Below are positions 11,826-21,754 of a stretch of 64,000 nucleotides of DNA, piece after piece. Origin of the DNA: Elusimicrobia bacterium HGW-Elusimicrobia-1 (GTDB taxonomy: Bacteria > Elusimicrobiota > Endomicrobiia > PHAN01). How positions within the stretch are numbered: the first letter of the stretch is position 1; every line of letters starts with the position of its first letter. The notes beneath the pieces were generated by a model. It ran no database searches and had not been told where the DNA came from. It was given only the letters and a program-made list of their open reading frames with translations. The translations under genes were made by a program, and so were the position numbers. The DNA lies in contig PHAN01000001.1 of assembly GCA_002841695.1 (NCBI GenBank), forward strand, positions 62,001 to 126,000, in the 5' to 3' direction.

Positions 11826-11988
11826 GTCACCCTGAGTGAAACGAAGGGTCTCGCTTCGGCTCAAGATAAACTCCGCGAAGAATCTCGTCTTTCGACGACA
11901 AGATAGACCCTTCGCGGAGTTTATCCTGAGGCATTACGAGATTCTTCGCTTCGCTCAGAATGACGCTCGCCGAAGGGCTCAGAATGAC
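11826..11988. repeat. gtcattctgag-family palindromic repeat
   Basis: Outer arms GTCACCCTGAGTGAA (11826) and TTCGCTCAGAATGAC pair imperfectly. An inner pair of arms (GATAAACTCCGCGAAG and CTTCGCGGAGTTTATC) forms a long stem. A further half-copy ends at about 11988. The same family is found at 17885-17960 and 38254-38323. It lies between the LysM gene and pgi; no other feature is seen there. Confidence 0.75.
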
Positions 11989-12624: not shown

Positions 12625-14205
12625 TCACAAGTAAACCCTGTAATCTATATCGGGAAAAATATTGTCCCTGCGTTCCAATTCCGTCACATACTCGCGGTCA
12701 AGCCGGCCGGTTCGGACATGTTCGTAAAGTTTGGTAAACCGCCGCAGATGGTCGGTGGTGCGCTTGCGGGCGTATTCCACCATGGTGCCGGTCGTCATTA
12801 TAAAAGCCCAGTCGCTGGACTGCGCCAGCATCAATTCTCTGGCCATTTGGTTGAGCGCCCTCCGCGCGTCGAGGCGAGCCGAGGGATTGTCCCGCGCGAT
12901 TTTTGTCATTCTTTCTTCCGCCTTGTGAAGATGACGGTAAATCCAGTCGTTTGAGCCGTTGAGCCACACTTCAAAGTAGCCCTTGTCGCCCCAGGATGAC
13001 GCCGCCGGACTTGATATTTGATTCTTCGGAAAGCGCGACAGATACTCCGACGGAGTGATGCACTTTACGATGTTCTGGTCGTAATGAATTTTTCTGAAAA
13101 GATAGTCCAGGAACAACGGCCCCTCGAACCACCAGTGACCGAAGAGTTCGGCGTCGAAAGGGGAAACCACCACGGGCGGACGGTCCATTATACTTGAGAG
13201 ATATTCCGCCTGTTTAGTTCTGTTAAACAGAAAATTTCCGGCGTGCGACGCGGCCGTCGCCGATGCCTTTGCCGGGTCGTAAGGCATTTTCGCGTCGAGA
13301 GAAACCTTACCCGTAACGCGGTAATATTTAAGCCCTACATTCCGGCGCACTCCATCGTCGTGAAGGTATGGTTTTATGTAATCGTAAGGCAGATCGTATC
13401 CGACGTCGCGGTAGAATTCCCTGTAAGACGGGTCGCCAGGATAGCCGGCGTCGGCGCTCCAGACCTGATGAGCCGTTTCCTGGTCCCTGCCGAAACAGGC
13501 CACGCCGGAAGGAGTGTAGAGCGGCGCGAAAATACCGTATCTCGGACGCGGTTCCGCGTATAAAATTCCGTGCGCTTCAAGAAAGAAAAACCGGATGCCC
13601 TCTTGGCGCAATATCTCTTCGATGCCGGGCGAATAGGCGCATTCGGCCAGCCATATTCCGCGCGGATTGCGTCCGAAATGCCGCCTGTAATCTTTTTTGG
13701 CGGCGCGAATCTGGGCAATCGCCGCGGCGCGGTGAGTCATCAGAGGAAGAAATCCGTGCGTCGCGCAGCAAGTTATTATCTCTATATGCCCTGAATCCTG
13801 GAGTTTTCTGAAACCCGCAAGAATCCTGCCGTCGTATTTGTCCAGAAGCCGGCGGCAATCCGCCAGTATATTTTTATAAAGAATCGCAGAGCGGTTGAAT
13901 TCGCGGCGGTTCTTGGTGCGCTCCACTTCTTTATCCGCGAGTTCCGCGAGCTTTGCTATGCGCGCGCCGTAGCGAGTCATTAAAAGCTCGTCGGACATCA
14001 TTCCGGCCAGCGACGGCGTTATAGTCATTGTGACGCGAAAATGGATTTTTTCGGAAACAAGGCGTTCAAATATGGAAAGAAGCGGCAGGTAGGTTTCAGT
14101 CAGCCCCTCGTAGAACCAATCCTCTTCGAGGAAATCCGGATATTCGGGGTGGCGTACGTACGGAAGGTGCGCGTGGAGAACGGGGCACCAGTATCCTTTT
14201 GGCAT
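12625..14205 (-). CDS. GH57 1,4-alpha-glucan branching enzyme
   Basis: A GH57 glycoside hydrolase of the AmyC/branching type, expected to create alpha-1,6 branches in glycogen-like glucans. Conserved regions are HAHLPYVRHPE (start), GIWLAECAYSPG with the likely nucleophile E188, and SPFDAELFGHWWFEGP with the likely acid/base D351. The usual WLPEC motif reads WLAEC. The C-terminal helical domain follows. The length of 526 residues is normal. The frame continues upstream to 14286 inside the DUF4912 gene, but homologues begin close to the ATG at 14205. DUF4912 genes commonly accompany GH57 enzymes. Amylase or glucanotransferase activity cannot be excluded. Confidence 0.87.
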   Translation of the reverse strand: MPKGYWCPVLHAHLPYVRHPEYPDFLEEDWFYEGLTETYLPLLSIFERLVSEKIHFRVTMTITPSLAGMMSDELLMTRYGARIAKLAELADKEVERTKNRREFNRSAILYKNILADCRRLLDKYDGRILAGFRKLQDSGHIEIITCCATHGFLPLMTHRAAAIAQIRAAKKDYRRHFGRNPRGIWLAECAYSPGIEEILRQEGIRFFFLEAHGILYAEPRPRYGIFAPLYTPSGVACFGRDQETAHQVWSADAGYPGDPSYREFYRDVGYDLPYDYIKPYLHDDGVRRNVGLKYYRVTGKVSLDAKMPYDPAKASATAASHAGNFLFNRTKQAEYLSSIMDRPPVVVSPFDAELFGHWWFEGPLFLDYLFRKIHYDQNIVKCITPSEYLSRFPKNQISSPAASSWGDKGYFEVWLNGSNDWIYRHLHKAEERMTKIARDNPSARLDARRALNQMARELMLAQSSDWAFIMTTGTMVEYARKRTTDHLRRFTKLYEHVRTGRLDREYVTELERRDNIFPDIDYRVYL

Positions 14206-14210
14206 CGGAT

Positions 14211-14834
14211 TTATTTTTTTGAGGTATTGGATTTTGAGCGGCCCGACAATACTCCGGAAGACGGCATAGACATAAGTTCCTTCCATCGTTCGGTCATAAG
14301 GCGGGCCATGGAAACGGATCCTGCGCCGGCTTCCAGACCGCCGGAAAGCTCAATTATTTTTTCAAAATCTTTTTCCGTTATGCCCCATTTCTCGTCCGTT
14401 TTGTCAGAAATCCCGAATCTGGGGGACGCCACGGGATTAGACCTGGCCGCCGCCGTAAACACGCCGTCGGCGCCGATTACGCCTATCTCCACGCACCATA
14501 CGCGGTTGACGCGCCCGCAGTTTATGTGCCAGCTTCCCGACTCGGGGGCAACAAAAATATCGAAAGCCGCAAGGGCGTTCCTGCCGTTGAATTTTACGCC
14601 CGTTATGTCGTAAACCCTGAGCGCCCACACGGCGCGCGATTTTGGTTTCGGCGGCAGTTTTTTGGTAAGCGCGGATATCTTATTTTGGTTTATTTCCCAG
14701 TAGACGTATATCCAGAGAGGATCCCTGGGGAGAGCGACAATCTTGGTGTCTCCGTATGACGCCGGAAGTCCGTGCGCCGTCGCTTGCGCCGGACGTATCT
14801 TTCTTAAAGACATTGAACCTGCGATTTTGGCCAT
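14211..14834 (-). CDS. DUF4912 domain protein
   Basis: The protein has 207 residues. It carries the DUF4912 pattern: LPASYGDTKIVALPRDPLWIYVYWEI, then WALRVYDITG and SGSWHINCGRVNRVW. The biochemical role of the domain is not known; it is often encoded beside GH57 glucan-branching enzymes, as here (five bases between the genes). A Gly/Ser/Lys-rich tail ends the protein. It is the first gene of a leftward operon behind a strong predicted promoter, with a GAGG ribosome site. Confidence 0.82.
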   Translation of the reverse strand: MAKIAGSMSLRKIRPAQATAHGLPASYGDTKIVALPRDPLWIYVYWEINQNKISALTKKLPPKPKSRAVWALRVYDITGVKFNGRNALAAFDIFVAPESGSWHINCGRVNRVWCVEIGVIGADGVFTAAARSNPVASPRFGISDKTDEKWGITEKDFEKIIELSGGLEAGAGSVSMARLMTERWKELMSMPSSGVLSGRSKSNTSKK

Positions 14835-15024: not shown

Positions 15025-16602
15025 ATGCCATCAGCGATGACGAGACACTTTAAAGCAGCCGCGGTTTCCGCCGCGTGTTTTTCTGCGTTCGCAATAGCGG
15101 GTTTTGCCGCCGTGCCCGCGGCGACAGAGCGCGTTTATTTCTTTCTTTCCAGAACTCAAAGTCCCGACGGAAGTGTCGGCGGCGAAATACGTCGCGCGGC
15201 GGATCAGGCGCTTGTCGCCTCCGTTTTTCTGTATCGCGGGCATATAAACAGGGCGCGAAGGGCGCTCGATATTCTCGACAATATAAGGGAGGCCGACAAA
15301 AAATCAGGCGGATTCAAAGGGTTCGCGCAGACCTACGACGACAAATCGCGGGTCGTCTCGGGGCGCATCGACCCGTTTGCGCAGGCGGCCGCCGCATCGG
15401 CTTTTTATAACTACAAATCCATTGCGGGTACAAGCAGATACGACCGTTCGATGTCGGCCCTGGCGGACTTGTATCTCGCGCGGGTCAACCCGTGGGGCGT
15501 TGTCAGCGATTTTTCCGCGCTCTCATCGACGTCCGCGCTGCCGGCGACAATATCGTCGCCATCGGCGGTCGAAAATCTCTGCGCCTATTATATTTTTAAC
15601 GCGGCCGCCGCCTACACGAGAGACGACCGCTACTTAAAAGCCGCCAAGCGTCTCGGATACGCGCTGAAAGATTTGTTCTTTGAAGAAACCCGCAAGAGTT
15701 TTGTCGCGGATTTGTCGGGCGGGCCGGCCGCGCCGGATTCTTACGCCAATATGCTTGGAGCGTTGTTTGGCGGCCCGTGGCGTCCGGCGGTGTCGCTTGA
15801 CGCCGGAGGCGGTTTGGGCCGTATGTCCTTATCCGAATTGGCCGCAGCGCAGTACACCGCGTCCGCGAATTCGTCCGTGCCATCGCCCGAGCCGGCAACG
15901 GCCATGTTCCTGAGTTTCCCGCCGGAGATACCCGACGGAGCGTTTATAGGCGCATCGGACGGACAATCCCGCCCGAAACCGGACTATTTCGCCACTGCGG
16001 TTTTTGTTTTTCTGGCGGAAAAAAATAATCCGTTTGCCATTCGCGACGAAAACTTTTTGCGCCGCGTGGACGGCGCCGAAGTTCCGCGCGGCGAGCAGTG
16101 GAAGTCCGACGGATTTGAGTCCGGTGAGAGAGAGTTTTATTCGGCGCCCCGCGAAGCCGTTCGCAACGCCGACGTGTTCTTAAGCCCCGACAATCAGTCG
16201 AAAAAAAACGGAAGTTTTTCCCTGAGGGCGCAGTATTTGCCCTTGAAAAACGAGAAATCCTCGGCCATTGTCACCAGGGTTTTCTACCCCGCGCAGGATT
16301 TTTCCGGAGCGGGCCGCTTACGGTTTTGGCTCGCTGCCCGCCCCGCGGTTTTTACTTTGGGCGCGATGAATCTGAAAATCCGCCTCAGAGTAATAGACGA
16401 ATCCGGAGTGTGGGCGGATTCCCAGCCGTTAAATTATTCCGGGCGCGGCGTGGAAAACTCCGTGGTCTGCCCCGCGGGTTTTACGCCGTCGGCCGTCGGA
16501 AAACATCCCGACTATTCCAAAATAAAAAAACTTGTCTGGATGTTTGAAGAAGAAACCCAGACGTCCTGGAACATAAATCTTGACGACGTGAGGATAGAAT
16601 GA
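15025..16602 (+). CDS. Exported protein with helical-toroid and jelly-roll-like domains, unknown function
   Basis: The protein has 525 residues. A signal peptide is visible (FKAAAVSAACFSAFAIAGFAA). Residues about 30-280 contain repeated helical units with aromatic and acidic positions (SRTQSPDGSVGGEI, YNYKSIAGTSRYDRSM, YLKAAKRLGYAL) that resemble an alpha/alpha toroid as in some glycoside hydrolases or lyases. Residues about 345-525 look like a beta-rich carbohydrate-binding jelly roll and end LDDVRIE. I do not recognise the family, and no catalytic residues can be assigned. It overlaps the following barrel-LysM gene by four bases, so both probably act at the envelope. An ATG at 15037 is an alternative start. 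Confidence 0.6.
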   Translation: MPSAMTRHFKAAAVSAACFSAFAIAGFAAVPAATERVYFFLSRTQSPDGSVGGEIRRAADQALVASVFLYRGHINRARRALDILDNIREADKKSGGFKGFAQTYDDKSRVVSGRIDPFAQAAAASAFYNYKSIAGTSRYDRSMSALADLYLARVNPWGVVSDFSALSSTSALPATISSPSAVENLCAYYIFNAAAAYTRDDRYLKAAKRLGYALKDLFFEETRKSFVADLSGGPAAPDSYANMLGALFGGPWRPAVSLDAGGGLGRMSLSELAAAQYTASANSSVPSPEPATAMFLSFPPEIPDGAFIGASDGQSRPKPDYFATAVFVFLAEKNNPFAIRDENFLRRVDGAEVPRGEQWKSDGFESGEREFYSAPREAVRNADVFLSPDNQSKKNGSFSLRAQYLPLKNEKSSAIVTRVFYPAQDFSGAGRLRFWLAARPAVFTLGAMNLKIRLRVIDESGVWADSQPLNYSGRGVENSVVCPAGFTPSAVGKHPDYSKIKKLVWMFEEETQTSWNINLDDVRIE

Positions 16603-17810
16603 CGAGATTATCGACGCGCTCCGCCGTTGCCTGCGCGGCGTTTATATTAACGGGCGTTTCCGCTTTCGCGTCGACGATTTCCCGCTTTCCCGGCATGGCC
16701 TCCGCCGGAGTGTCCGAACCCGACGGCCCGTCGGCCGCGCTGCTTAACCCCGCCTCTCTGGCGGTAACCGAAGAAAGCGAGTTTTCCGTCGGTTTGGCGA
16801 ACGGCCGCTCGAAGGGCATCGACTTAGGCGCTTCTTACACCGGGATATTCAGAAAGTTTGCTCCCGCCTCGGCGTTTCTATCAAAAAATCTCTCGACCGG
16901 CGAGTTTGATTTTTCCGCGGCTTTCGGACGCAAGGAAACACTGAACTTTTTGCCGGGTTTTTCATGGGGCGCGCGCGCGGGCGTTTCGGCCGCAGATGAC
17001 GGCGCCATAGCCGGCGGACTGACCGCCGGAGCCCATTTTCCCGTCGATGCGTGGCGTTTCGGCGCGGCCCTGGCGTCCGGCGGCGGCAGGCCCTCCGCCC
17101 GTTTGGGCGGCTCGACATATCTGCTGGACGAATATCTGCTTGCCGCCGACATAGACACGGATTCCAAAATCTATCTGGGATTTGAAACCGGAGTTTACGG
17201 CAATCTCGGCCGCGCTCGCGCGGGATTCAATACCCGCGACGAAGCCGTCTCCGTCGGACTGGGAGCGTATCTCTGGCCTTACGCCGTCGACGTATATTAC
17301 TCCGTGCCTCTGAATATTGCAACATCGGGGCGGTTTGGATTTTCCTTTGTGTACCGATTCGGCGGATACAATTTTTCACAGGTGCTTCTGGAGCGCAATA
17401 CCGAAAAAACCATGTATCTTGAAAAACGCATAAGGGACGCCAAGTCCGAGCTCTCGACGCTCAACAAGAAGCTAGTTGAGACGGAAGACGCCTACCGGAA
17501 AGCGCGCGATTTCGTGGACATTCTTGACTCAGAGGCGTCGGAGTTGATTAAGCAGAAATTAAAGATGATGAAGGGCGGTGTCGACGAGAAACCTGCGGCG
17601 GCGCCCGCGCCTCAGCGTCAGGCGGTCGCCGCTCCCAAGCGCACGTGGCCGGTTCGCCATCGCGCGCAGGCCGGAGATTCATTAAGGTCGCTGGCTCAGC
17701 AATATTACGGAGATTCCAACAAGTGGCAGAAGATATACGACGCAAATCGCAATAAAATCGAGCGGGGTTTGCCGAAAATCGGAGAAGATATAATAATCAC
17801 CGCGCCGTAA
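16599..17810 (+). CDS. PorV-like outer-membrane barrel with coiled coil and C-terminal LysM
   Basis: The protein has 403 residues. A signal peptide (about 1-25) is followed by the pattern GPSAALLNPASLA (NPA at 50-52) typical of the PorV/PorQ/UPF0164 outer-membrane family and an alternating beta-strand region to about 265. A charged coiled coil follows (about 270-325), then a Pro/Ala linker and a LysM module (about 350-403, HRAQAGDSLRSLAQQYYGD ... GEDIIITAP). The layout suggests a barrel in the outer membrane tied to peptidoglycan. It is translationally coupled to the exported protein before it. Its function is unknown. Confidence 0.65.
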   Translation: MTRLSTRSAVACAAFILTGVSAFASTISRFPGMASAGVSEPDGPSAALLNPASLAVTEESEFSVGLANGRSKGIDLGASYTGIFRKFAPASAFLSKNLSTGEFDFSAAFGRKETLNFLPGFSWGARAGVSAADDGAIAGGLTAGAHFPVDAWRFGAALASGGGRPSARLGGSTYLLDEYLLAADIDTDSKIYLGFETGVYGNLGRARAGFNTRDEAVSVGLGAYLWPYAVDVYYSVPLNIATSGRFGFSFVYRFGGYNFSQVLLERNTEKTMYLEKRIRDAKSELSTLNKKLVETEDAYRKARDFVDILDSEASELIKQKLKMMKGGVDEKPAAAPAPQRQAVAAPKRTWPVRHRAQAGDSLRSLAQQYYGDSNKWQKIYDANRNKIERGLPKIGEDIIITAP

Positions 17811-17820
17811 CGCCGCCGTA

Positions 17821-18080
17821 TGTCATTGTGAGGGCAAGGGCGCGGCGATCTGACACGAAGAGTCATTCTGGGTCCTTCGGCGGCGTCATTCTGAGCGTAG
17901 CGAAGAATCTTATAATGCCTCAGGATAAACTCCGCGAAGAATCTCATTGAGATCCTTCGGGCGTTGCCCTCAGGATGACTGCTTTGCGGTCAGATTGCTT
18001 CCCCCGCTTGCGCGGGGGCGGGCTCGTCGTTGTAGGTAGGGGTGAAAAATCTTTCGCCCCTACAAAATCCTCGCAATGAC
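17821..18080. repeat. Composite nested palindromic repeat (three families)
   Basis: The outer arms belong to the cattgcgagg family (TGTCATTGTGAGG at 17821; CCTCGCAATGAC ending at 18080). Inside are a gtcattctgag-family copy (about 17885-17980), a GC-rich hairpin (18001-18018, CCCCCGCTTGCGCGGGGG) and a ggggtgaaaaatctttcgcccct unit (about 18033-18063). Further half-copies (GTAATGAC, GCAATGAC) run to 18135. The stretch 17811-18153 (343 bases) contains no gene. Confidence 0.75.
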
Positions 18081-18153: not shown

Positions 18154-19353
18154 ATGCTCAAAGACGAACTGGAAAAATTAAAGAAGGAATGGGCGCCGAA
18201 GATAATGACCGGCTCCGGCGGCGAAGCCGCCTCCGAACTTTTTTTAAGACGAGCGGACATCGTCGGAGCCGCCGCCGACGACGAAATATCAAAACTTCAG
18301 AAACAGAACGCTTCTTATCGCGACGAAAATGAAATCATAAGAGGGCTTATAGGCCTTTCCGACGTCGAGACCAAGGCCAAAATACTTGCTCTGGTCGAGG
18401 AAACGCGTTTTCTGCGCGAACATATCATAGAACTCAAAAAAGCCGCCGACAAACTTTCCGCGGATTTGGAGATCTCGCGCATCGAGGTTGAAACCGTAAA
18501 ACGCGACGCGTCAGTCATTGAGGAAGTTCACAGAAAAGAACTCGACCGCCTCCGTGAGGTCATATCCGGCACGGAAAAAAAACTTTCCGTCATAGACGCC
18601 GGCTGGAAGAAAAAATACGACTCCGCCGCTTCGGAACTCGGCGGACAGCGCGCCGCGTATCACCGTCGGCTGGAAAGCTCTTCCTCCGATTTGTGGAGTT
18701 TTTCGCAGGTTGTGCTCGACGGGTGGGTAAGACACGTCCGCGACAATCTGGGCGCGGTTTTCGGCGCCACGGATTATCTGTCGGGATGTCTCGATCAAAA
18801 AATAACGTCCGTCAGAAAACTTAAAAAAGACATAGAGCCGGATCTTAAACTCATCAAGGAGAAAACAACCGCTACCGTTGACACTTTCAATAAAATGGCG
18901 GAATTTTTTCTGGTAAAGCCCGAACTCAAAAAATGCGACGTCAACGCGATTTTTCGCAAGTTGAAGGAAAAATACTCGCGGATTTTCGGGCTTACGGTCA
19001 AATGGCCGGAAGAAAAAGAATATCCGCCCGTTGTCTGCGACGAGGAACTTCTCGCCGCCGCGGTGGGAGAGTTGGTGGACAATTCCGCGGACGCTCTCGG
19101 CGGGGAAGAAGCCCGCTCCGGCTCCATAGACGTCAGCATTGTTTGCGACGACATTTCGTTTGCTGTCGAGGTCTCCGATTCGGGCGCCGGCGTTCCTCCT
19201 GAAAACGAGGAAAAATTGTTCACGCCTTTTTTTACGACAAAAACCGGCAGAGACGGCTTGGGACTGGTTCGCGCGAAACGAAACATACTTTTCCACGGCG
19301 GCGAAATACACTATTCCGCCGGCAAATTCAGATTCAAAATAAGCCATGAGTGA
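18154..19353 (+). CDS. Soluble coiled-coil sensor histidine kinase
   Basis: The protein has 399 residues and no membrane segment. Residues about 1-175 are mostly coiled coil. A divergent dimerisation/phosphoacceptor helix holds H194 in VRHVRDNLG. The ATPase domain is complete: N box ELVDNSADALGG (N310), G1 box DSGAGV (342-347), F box LFTPFFTTK (355-363) and GLGL (368-371). It probably phosphorylates the receiver of the next gene, which it overlaps by eight bases. The frame is open from 18076 through repeat sequence. I start at the ATG at 18154, with AGGA ten bases upstream; 18133 is possible. The input signal is unknown. Confidence 0.78.
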   Translation: MLKDELEKLKKEWAPKIMTGSGGEAASELFLRRADIVGAAADDEISKLQKQNASYRDENEIIRGLIGLSDVETKAKILALVEETRFLREHIIELKKAADKLSADLEISRIEVETVKRDASVIEEVHRKELDRLREVISGTEKKLSVIDAGWKKKYDSAASELGGQRAAYHRRLESSSSDLWSFSQVVLDGWVRHVRDNLGAVFGATDYLSGCLDQKITSVRKLKKDIEPDLKLIKEKTTATVDTFNKMAEFFLVKPELKKCDVNAIFRKLKEKYSRIFGLTVKWPEEKEYPPVVCDEELLAAAVGELVDNSADALGGEEARSGSIDVSIVCDDISFAVEVSDSGAGVPPENEEKLFTPFFTTKTGRDGLGLVRAKRNILFHGGEIHYSAGKFRFKISHE

Positions 19354-20503
19354 AAAAATACTTGTAGCCGTAGCCGATCCGTCGTCCCGATCCGCCCTTA
19401 TGTCGGCGCTCAAAAATTCCGGATACGGTGTATACGACATAGGCGAAATCGTCTCGGCGGCCGACGCCTTCTCCAAAGTTAATCCGTCGCTGATAGTGGC
19501 CGACACGGAGTTCACGGACTGGTTTCTCTCGCAGTTTCGTCAGGCGGCGTCCAGGGACTTGCCGGTAATCTGTTATCTCAAAGAGCACAACGCGCGGCTG
19601 GCTTACGACTATCTAAAAAAGGGAGCGTATGACTGCATCACCGATCCGCTGAGACCCATAGAGATAGTCGATATCGTCAACAAATCTCTGAGCAAGGATG
19701 TGCTGTCCTTCGATAAGTCCGCCAACCAGAACATATTCGATTATGTGGCCGCTCTGCCGCTTATCAAAAAAATATATCTGGCCGCCGGTTCGGCCGCGTT
19801 TATCGGCATTTTCGGGCTTTTGGTTTATCTGGCCGCCAGCCCATCGGTCGGAAAAGAGATAGAAGTGTCCCACCGAAACGTAACGGGCGTGATAGTAGGC
19901 GCCAAATCGGTTTATGTGAGCGATTGGTTCACCCAATCGGTGTATCGTTACGCCCGCGCCCGCGGCGAATTGCTGGACGTGTACTATTTTTCGGATTTCG
20001 GACCTTTGGGACTGGCCACCGACGGCGCGTCGATTTATTCCGTCGGCACGGATTCCATGATCCGCCGCCACGTGGTCAACGACGCCGCAAAGCGTCTTGA
20101 GACGGCAGAAGAGTACACCGCGCCCGGACTTGTGTCGGGCGGAGGCATTTTCGCCGAGAAAGATTTCATCTGGGCGGGCGACACTCAAATGAAAAAGTTG
20201 TTCCTTTACGAAATAATCCGTGCCGTCCCGCCTTCGCCGGGCGCATTAAGAAAAATAGGGGAATATTCCACCGGCGCCATATCGCCCGTCGCCGTCTGTA
20301 AAAAAGGCGACAAAATATTTCTGGCCGACGGCGTCACCGGTTCCGTTTTTTCGGGGAAAATAATAGACGACAGGTTCATCCCGCAGAAGGAAAACACGGC
20401 GCCGCCGGGTTTTCGCGTAGTTGCCTGCGCCATAGAAGAATCCGGATTTCTGGCGGTATTCGCCGGAGACAAAACCATTCTTAAAAGGACAAAGTTCAAA
20501 TAA
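19346..20503 (+). CDS. Receiver domain - transmembrane helix - beta-propeller-like protein
   Basis: The protein has 385 residues. Residues 1-115 resemble a response-regulator receiver: ILVAVADPSSR, a possible phosphoacceptor D53 in LIVADTEF, and a C-terminal GAYDCITDPL where the conserved KP reads DP, so the site may be degenerate. A single membrane helix lies at about 143-164 (IYLAAGSAAFIGIFGLLVYLAA). The remainder (170-385) has repeated strand motifs (VYVSDWFTQSVYRY, IYSVGTDSMIRR, KIFLADGVTGSVFSG) like a beta-propeller and would lie outside the cytoplasm. It is coupled to the kinase gene upstream. I know of no named family with this order. Confidence 0.65.
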   Translation: MSEKILVAVADPSSRSALMSALKNSGYGVYDIGEIVSAADAFSKVNPSLIVADTEFTDWFLSQFRQAASRDLPVICYLKEHNARLAYDYLKKGAYDCITDPLRPIEIVDIVNKSLSKDVLSFDKSANQNIFDYVAALPLIKKIYLAAGSAAFIGIFGLLVYLAASPSVGKEIEVSHRNVTGVIVGAKSVYVSDWFTQSVYRYARARGELLDVYYFSDFGPLGLATDGASIYSVGTDSMIRRHVVNDAAKRLETAEEYTAPGLVSGGGIFAEKDFIWAGDTQMKKLFLYEIIRAVPPSPGALRKIGEYSTGAISPVAVCKKGDKIFLADGVTGSVFSGKIIDDRFIPQKENTAPPGFRVVACAIEESGFLAVFAGDKTILKRTKFK

Positions 20504-20671: not shown

Positions 20672-21754
20672 ATGAAGTTCAACATATACGTTCTCTATCC
20701 GTTCGATTCGGGGCTGGAGCTTGATTTCAAAGGCCGCGCCGCCGACGAATTCTTTAAGTCGATGTCGTCGAAAAAAACGTCGGTCAATGTCGTGTCGCAC
20801 GAAGCCGCGTCGCGTTTTGCCCCGTCGGTGGAGTCCACCACAGCGGTGTATAAATTCGGCGTCGGCGTCACACAGCTGAAACTTTCCGTTGAATGCGAAA
20901 TGAAAGACCTCGCCGATCTTTCATTCGCCGTGGAGAACGTCAGGATAGGCAAAACCCGCCTCGAAGATTACGCCCGCTCCGTGGCCGAAGGCGTTATGCA
21001 CAGGGCGCGGAAATTGGCGGTTTACCGCTACGAGATGCGGCTGCCGGACGTGGAGATATTTCCCATTTTCACCGCGGAGGAACCGCTGTCCGACGACGCC
21101 GCGCGTTTCATAGAGCGCAATAACAGGGTGATATTCGGTATACTTTCCGGCGAGCGCGAGTATGACCGGCTTTCCGCTTACGTGCTCGAACAGGAAAAAC
21201 TCGTCAACTACGGCTATTATGAAAACGAAATAATACTCATCAAAAGATTCGGAGCTTTCGTGGCTTCGTCCGACGCGTCCGCGGTGGCCGAAATGATAAA
21301 ACTGGCGCTGGCGCAGTACTGGTCGCTTAAATCCTATAATTTCATAATGGACAAGGAACTCGATACCGCGCAAATGCTGCTGGGCTCGATGCCCCCGTAC
21401 TACAAGTTCTGGCGCATGCCATCCGCGTATCACAGATTCTCGGCGGAGGCCATAGATTTCGACAGAGATAAAATTTCCATCGTCGATTCTCTCTATAACG
21501 TGATGATAAACATTCCGCGCGTGGAGGCCGACTGGCATCTCGGCACGATTCACAAGAACGTAAACAAAGTGTTCGATATAAACGGGCTTTACGAGACGGT
21601 GGGCACAAAGATAGAACGCATCGAAGAATCTTATAACGCCGCCCGCGATTATCTGTCCACTAATTTTTTTATTCTTCTGGATATAATATTCTTTCTGTCG
21701 CTGGCCTGGTCGGTTTTTGACACGATACTGCTCTTTACGATAGCTAAAAAATAA
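20672..21754 (+). CDS. Unknown protein with C-terminal membrane segment (possible RMD1/DUF155-like)
   Basis: The protein has 360 residues starting MKFNIYVLYPFD; an open frame runs upstream through repeat sequence, but the ATG at 20672 is the first after the repeat. The body is mixed alpha/beta with an acidic patch (ERNNRVIFGILSGEREYDRL). A long helical tail (GTKIERIEESYNAARDYL) leads to a hydrophobic segment at about 325-355 ending near the C-terminus. This body-plus-tail-anchor plan recalls RMD1/DUF155 proteins, but the match is weak. It may belong with the kinase and receiver-propeller genes upstream, or with none of its neighbours. Confidence 0.45.
   Translation: MKFNIYVLYPFDSGLELDFKGRAADEFFKSMSSKKTSVNVVSHEAASRFAPSVESTTAVYKFGVGVTQLKLSVECEMKDLADLSFAVENVRIGKTRLEDYARSVAEGVMHRARKLAVYRYEMRLPDVEIFPIFTAEEPLSDDAARFIERNNRVIFGILSGEREYDRLSAYVLEQEKLVNYGYYENEIILIKRFGAFVASSDASAVAEMIKLALAQYWSLKSYNFIMDKELDTAQMLLGSMPPYYKFWRMPSAYHRFSAEAIDFDRDKISIVDSLYNVMINIPRVEADWHLGTIHKNVNKVFDINGLYETVGTKIERIEESYNAARDYLSTNFFILLDIIFFLSLAWSVFDTILLFTIAKK

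Follow-up and report, generated by a model that had tools for sequence, protein, structure and literature searches.

The window (the whole 64,000-nucleotide stretch of Elusimicrobia bacterium HGW-Elusimicrobia-1 that was analysed) encodes a soluble histidine-kinase-like protein in which the phosphoacceptor His is missing, coupled to a partner that joins a degenerate receiver domain through a single transmembrane (TM) helix to a five-bladed propeller. A pair of kinase and receiver-TM-propeller protein had been noticed in a preliminary description of this DNA, and its existence is confirmed. The favoured explanation, for which we regard the balance as even, is that the two proteins are a two-component pair operating without phosphotransfer, in which docking at the kinase-receiver interface connects the state of the cytoplasm with a module for export or anchoring in the outer membrane. 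The computational basis is the domain anatomy, the absence of the His and of all but one of the five receiver site residues, the retained ATP boxes, purifying selection, and a conserved neighbourhood.

The genes come from an Endomicrobiia (Elusimicrobiota) draft genome of 2.06 Mb, which is in 25 contigs and 96.9% complete. The kinase-like protein (399 aa; 18154..19353, + strand) consists of a coiled coil, recognized by eye over approximately residues 1–185, a DHp region, and an HATPase_c domain (residues 296–388; 19039..19317, +). Its open reading frame opens at 18076 and the start was set at 18154 because the ortholog in a second genome (L006) begins at the corresponding residue. The partner gene (385 aa; 19346..20503, +) follows on the same strand and shares eight bases with the kinase gene, an overlap that bears out the coupling originally proposed. 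The same pair is present in L006 (71 and 77% identity for the two proteins), and among named genomes the closest is an Endomicrobiia MAG, in which the partner protein is 77% identical. A single-protein scan of genome contigs recovered only two relatives, both from Elusimicrobiota-group genomes; the recurrence of the pair in other genomes, which had been suggested as a check, was found in L006 and in relatives across the phylum. The window also contains two copies of a dispersed short repeat (core TGAGCG-AGCGAAG-ATC; 17886–17909, +, and 11940–11963, −), one of them just upstream of the kinase gene; the genome holds 56 copies with at most one mismatch and none of a reversed-pattern control.

An orthodox two-component kinase pairs an ATP-binding domain bearing N, G1, and G2 boxes with a phosphoacceptor His in the DHp helix, and the window kinase possesses the first of these without the second. 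The HATPase_c match (PF02518, one of 15 in the genome) scored 59.3 bits against a cut-off of 26.4 and all three boxes are intact, as they are in 12 of 13 His-less kinases. At the phosphoacceptor site, alignment with relatives places Arg193, followed by His194 at the +1 position (codons at 18730..18735, +), a loss that the preliminary description overlooked. By its sequence the protein is a pseudo-histidine kinase, with the DHp/CA fold and no phosphoacceptor His, a condition reported as rare among HisKA domains (722 of 76,471 lack the His site). A slip in the alignment of the H-box was ruled out, as the family profile and two MAFFT modes assign R193 to the same column, with the flanking V, R, L, and G in register and gapless. 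Relatives carry Met (genus sister), Asn (L035), or Asp (L036) at this site, and from these sequences no other residue type seems to stand in for the His in the window clade. H194 is retained in both genus members and is Lys in L035 and L036. Searches of the kinase for a HisKA (Pfam) match, a PAS match, and a TM segment (best hydropathy, 1.04) found none, the last in keeping with its earlier description as soluble.

The partner is divided into a pseudo-receiver (residues 3–117; 19352..19696, +), a TM segment (residues 145–163; 19778..19834, +), and a propeller (residues 171–382; 19856..20491, +). An AlphaFold2 model (mean pLDDT, 84.2; pTM, 0.58) contains an alpha/beta receiver at residues 1–115, a long helix at 138–164, and the strands of five blades at approximately 171–382; together with structural matches from VIA-align, this agrees with the arrangement of N-terminal receiver fold, one TM segment, and C-terminal propeller for which structure prediction had been proposed as a check. 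The propeller part resembles glutaminyl cyclotransferases (best match 2iwa; Z, 22.8; rmsd, 2.3; 201 aligned) and the receiver part resembles RssB (3f7a; Z, 15.5; rmsd, 3.0; 118 aligned), while receiver-type chains appeared in the best 60 of 318 matches of a PDB sequence search with the full-length profile. Propellers and barrels dominate the Foldseek and VIA lists, and absences from those lists are uninformative. From the DD/D/T/K set of an orthodox receiver only D53 is kept, with V9-A10, L78, and D100 at the other positions, and D53 is retained in seven of seven rows of the window clade. The receiver was proposed to lack the conserved Lys-Pro; the Lys is lost, but the Pro is kept (D100-P101). 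With a receiver fold in the model, the RssB match, the missing catalytic residues, and a Pfam score (20.4 bits) below the cut-off of 30.2, the domain has the features by which pseudo-receivers are recognized (PMC12632262).

The likelier topology has the receiver in the cytoplasm and the propeller in the periplasm, based on domain logic and a weak positive-inside bias. Across the 80 family members with a scored TM segment (a further three had none by threshold), K+R counts before the segment were higher in 51, lower in 15, and equal in 14; the window partner itself is neutral (two vs two).

Both window proteins are under purifying selection. Compared with L006, the kinase has a dN/dS of 0.13 and the partner one of 0.11; by part, the ratios are 0.078, 0.126, and 0.103 for the receiver, DHp, and propeller, respectively, with the ATPase domain the most constrained part of the pair (0.068); dS for these parts is 1.2–2.2, near saturation, and the ratios are rough. 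Decay into pseudogenes is ruled out by these ratios.

With E at most 1e-12, the propeller was found in 148 of 340 genomes and 66 of 100 genera of the phylum, and 117 propeller copies were annotated in 133 loci, which were hand-chosen from the top of the hit lists and are a non-random set. Fifty-eight propeller genes have a scorable kinase directly upstream (the count leaves out a truncated kinase, L136, and L235, which duplicates L034). The receiver Lys was present in 40 of 40 pairs with a His-bearing kinase vs one of 18 with a His-less kinase. Among the His-bearing pairs, 37 of 40 receivers were fully canonical; the remaining three all have the Lys, with part of the site missing in L150 and L213 and an incomplete reading frame for the receiver of L208. 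The partners of the 18 His-less kinases had an undetectable receiver (n = 11), a degenerate receiver (n = 6), or, in L153, a canonical one, so that 17 of 18 are Lys-less or lack a receiver. In L043_5453 the receiver is undetectable and the kinase lacks the ATP boxes as well. The receiver was replaced by TPR in four of the ten proteins tested (L043_14424, L044, L101, L166), all beside kinases with Arg at the site. A canonical receiver was found in none of the 27 copies with a barrel gene, instead of a kinase gene, directly upstream.

Joint loss of the His and the Lys fits this series. A Fisher test on the first 45 pairs (5.7e-9) ignores kinship and is not relied on because the rows are related. 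The tree of the 58 propellers requires a minimum of four changes of the kinase His and three of the Lys and contains three starred independent pairs (two concordant, one without change), compared to two starred pairs in an earlier tree of 83 propellers; a single clade of all His-less rows except L153 was not rejected (p-AU = 0.056). Repeated independent loss is therefore suggestive, not proven, because the independent events are few. Separately, the survey located orphan pseudo-receiver-propeller copies at L033:8406-9551 (own genome, C12), L037:7529-8644, and L045:5515-6660, of which the L033 copy is flanked by DXP synthase/FtsJ genes on one side and a PilZ gene on the other and has no upstream kinase or barrel. 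Longer proteins with a C-terminal propeller and no canonical receiver were found at L234:4184-6235 (own genome, C11) and, at 560–1100 aa, in L103, L122, L210, and L215; those of L234, L103, and L122 immediately follow a barrel gene.

The preliminary description also overlooked the gene just upstream of the pair (16599..17810, +), which encodes a FadL/PorV-like outer-membrane barrel with a long helix and a C-terminal LysM. The model of this protein (mean pLDDT, 66.2) has 14 strands, the long helix, and a fold in the LysM region, and its structural matches include TodX (Z, 25.5), FadL, and two type 9 translocon entries, 8gl6_F (Z, 24.3) and 6h3i_F (Z, 23.9), which we take to be PorV. The LysM-protein profile was matched by ten of ten cassette barrels tested, and the PorV_fam profile likewise by ten of ten, with E values no higher than 2.2e-4 and scores that all fell short of the curated cut-off (window barrel, 20.9 bits; cut-off, 90). 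The order barrel-kinase-partner recurs in L035, L036, L039, L040, L041, L043, L088, and others. A barrel gene was found within 4 kb upstream of 31 of 63 propeller genes vs five of 42 other genes; within the same distance, 37 of the 63 copies have a kinase, 18 both a kinase and a barrel, and 13 neither.

Further upstream is a protein of unknown family with a signal-peptide-like N-terminus, judged by eye (15025..16602, +), which is also a neighbour in L035 and L036. A type IX-like tail on the upstream secreted protein was matched in seven of eight relatives tested (E of 0.0012 or better, mostly sub-cut-off; only 0.095 for the secreted protein of L103), and a search for such a tail on the window neighbour found none. 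The genome itself has ten Por_Secre_tail matches and an above-cut-off match to SprA_N, with neighbours in the same frame. This SprA_N match (G000:C15:5819-6730, in a 1701-aa frame) points to a type IX-like translocon in the phylum; GldM was found in none of 12 genomes in a search in which the control was equally silent. Downstream of the pair, a 360-aa protein without a Pfam match (20672–21754, +) has orthologs in the corresponding position in L006, L035, and L036 (85, 55, and 56% identity, respectively) and was found also in L098 and L106. On the opposite strand, a GH57/branching-enzyme-type protein (12625–14834, −) adjoins a DUF4912 protein.

Under the favoured explanation, the coiled-coil pseudo-kinase, with its ATP site, would dock by its DHp/CA region onto the pseudo-receiver of the partner, the docked state depending on the ATP state of the kinase, on how much of it is present, or on a ligand that it binds. 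The single TM helix would convey this state to the periplasmic propeller, which may engage the outer-membrane barrel of the upstream gene, a protein whose helix and LysM would lie in the periplasm, and the pair would thereby set, or simply scaffold, the anchoring or export function of the barrel. The signal may run outward, and in the intact relatives a soluble kinase would phosphorylate a receiver joined across the membrane to the propeller, consistent with an outward output. Docking without phosphotransfer is favoured because neither side retains the chemistry, yet the fold, the ATP site, the coupling of the genes, and purifying selection all persist. Counted against it are the retention of D53 in the window clade and of H194 in the genus, the small number of independent events, the 13 of 63 copies without upstream kinase or barrel, and the window neighbour without a type IX tail. 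A broader proposal is that, repeatedly within this phylum, the kinase and the receiver together gave up phosphotransfer for binding, and that the pair now spans the inner membrane as an ATP-dependent gate or lock acting on an outer-membrane module that is PorV-like and bound to peptidoglycan; we hold it tentatively and with more doubt than belief.

An ordinary phosphotransfer pair is rejected on the incomplete active sites of both proteins, and the earlier suggestion that signalling may bypass normal phosphotransfer is supported by the loss of the kinase His (R193) and the receiver Lys. Phosphate transfer to D53, proposed as a check, would probably stop at its first step, as the kinase has no phosphoacceptor His. 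Phosphotransfer might still persist if H194 were a shifted phosphoacceptor, or if another kinase or a small phosphodonor phosphorylated D53, and the conservation of both residues in the genus and the 15 HATPase_c matches in the genome fit such a route; but H194 is one residue off register and Lys in L035 and L036, and the metal-binding DD pair, the S/T, and the Lys are lost, making this very improbable. That the missing catalytic residues reflect an annotation or assembly artefact in a 25-contig draft, or decaying genes, is scarcely credible given the same pair at 71 and 77% identity in a second genome and dN/dS of 0.13 and 0.11.

The pair could instead sense from the outside in, with the propeller responding to peptidoglycan, to the barrel, or to cargo of the barrel, and the pseudo-receiver altering the pseudo-kinase to regulate something cytoplasmic, much as DivL, a pseudo-kinase, reads a response regulator (PMC4211667). 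The kept ATP boxes accord with this, and some kinase-less copies adjoin the barrel, where the propeller must therefore have a kinase-independent role. No cytoplasmic target was found in the operon, however, and in the intact relatives the kinase should hand its phosphate to the receiver, a direction that speaks for the propeller as the output; we consider an inward sensor rather unlikely. A static scaffold, left over from a two-component system and serving only to assemble or position the barrel, with no switching, would suit the many copies in which the receiver is absent, TPR-replaced, or degenerate and the others that lack the kinase. The constraint on the ATPase domain (dN/dS, 0.068), the tightest in the pair, and the boxes kept in 12 of 13 His-less kinases argue against a purely structural role, which seems unlikely overall.

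If the favoured explanation is correct, the pair is a phosphotransfer-free two-component pair tied to an outer-membrane module. With a pseudo-kinase and a pseudo-receiver encoded by overlapping genes, and intact relatives in the same cassette type, a docking interface as the sole signal carrier becomes testable. The pair is also a candidate for a route by which the cytoplasm acts on a type IX-like module of the outer membrane in bacteria other than Bacteroidota, and, if the switch did occur repeatedly, the intact His-Asp cassettes of sister lineages would be a natural before-and-after series. A literature search on membrane proteins that join a receiver to a propeller, on PorV, type IX, and two-component systems in Elusimicrobiota, and on pseudo-kinases combined with pseudo-receivers, covering titles and abstracts in mostly open literature, did not find this pair.

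Several known systems share elements with it. DivL of Caulobacter crescentus, described as a His-less kinase serving as a binding module (PMC4211667), is likewise a kinase-like protein with the DHp/CA fold and no phosphoacceptor His, but it has PAS domains and a Tyr at the His site and reads the phosphorylatable receiver of DivK, whereas the window kinase has an Arg and no PAS match, the receiver, likewise disabled, belongs to a membrane protein with a propeller, and binding is predicted. Bacterial pseudo-receivers likewise have a receiver fold from which the catalytic residues for phosphotransfer are missing; of 20 characterised proteins, 18 are given as orphans, and their switching is called a mystery (Bourret et al. 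2025, PMC12632262), while the gene of the window pseudo-receiver overlaps that of a His-less kinase and the domain is fused to a TM helix and a propeller. In the PorP-PorE system, a propeller protein binds the PorP barrel that holds a surface protein (PMC9143113), a similar grouping of outer-membrane barrel, five-bladed propeller, peptidoglycan-binding domain, and secreted protein, with TPR-propeller variants here too. PorE, however, carries TPR, propeller, CRD, and OmpA_C in one protein (domains described in PMC5053529), with peptidoglycan binding on the propeller protein, whereas the window protein has the propeller only (some relatives add TPR) and is TM-tethered, with the LysM on the barrel. 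PorX is comparable in placing a CheY-like domain at a type IX system, where it acts on a motor protein by binding GldL (PMC10951265), but it has a PglZ domain and loses the interaction in the phospho-ablative D54A form, while the receiver in the window is degenerate and membrane-fused.
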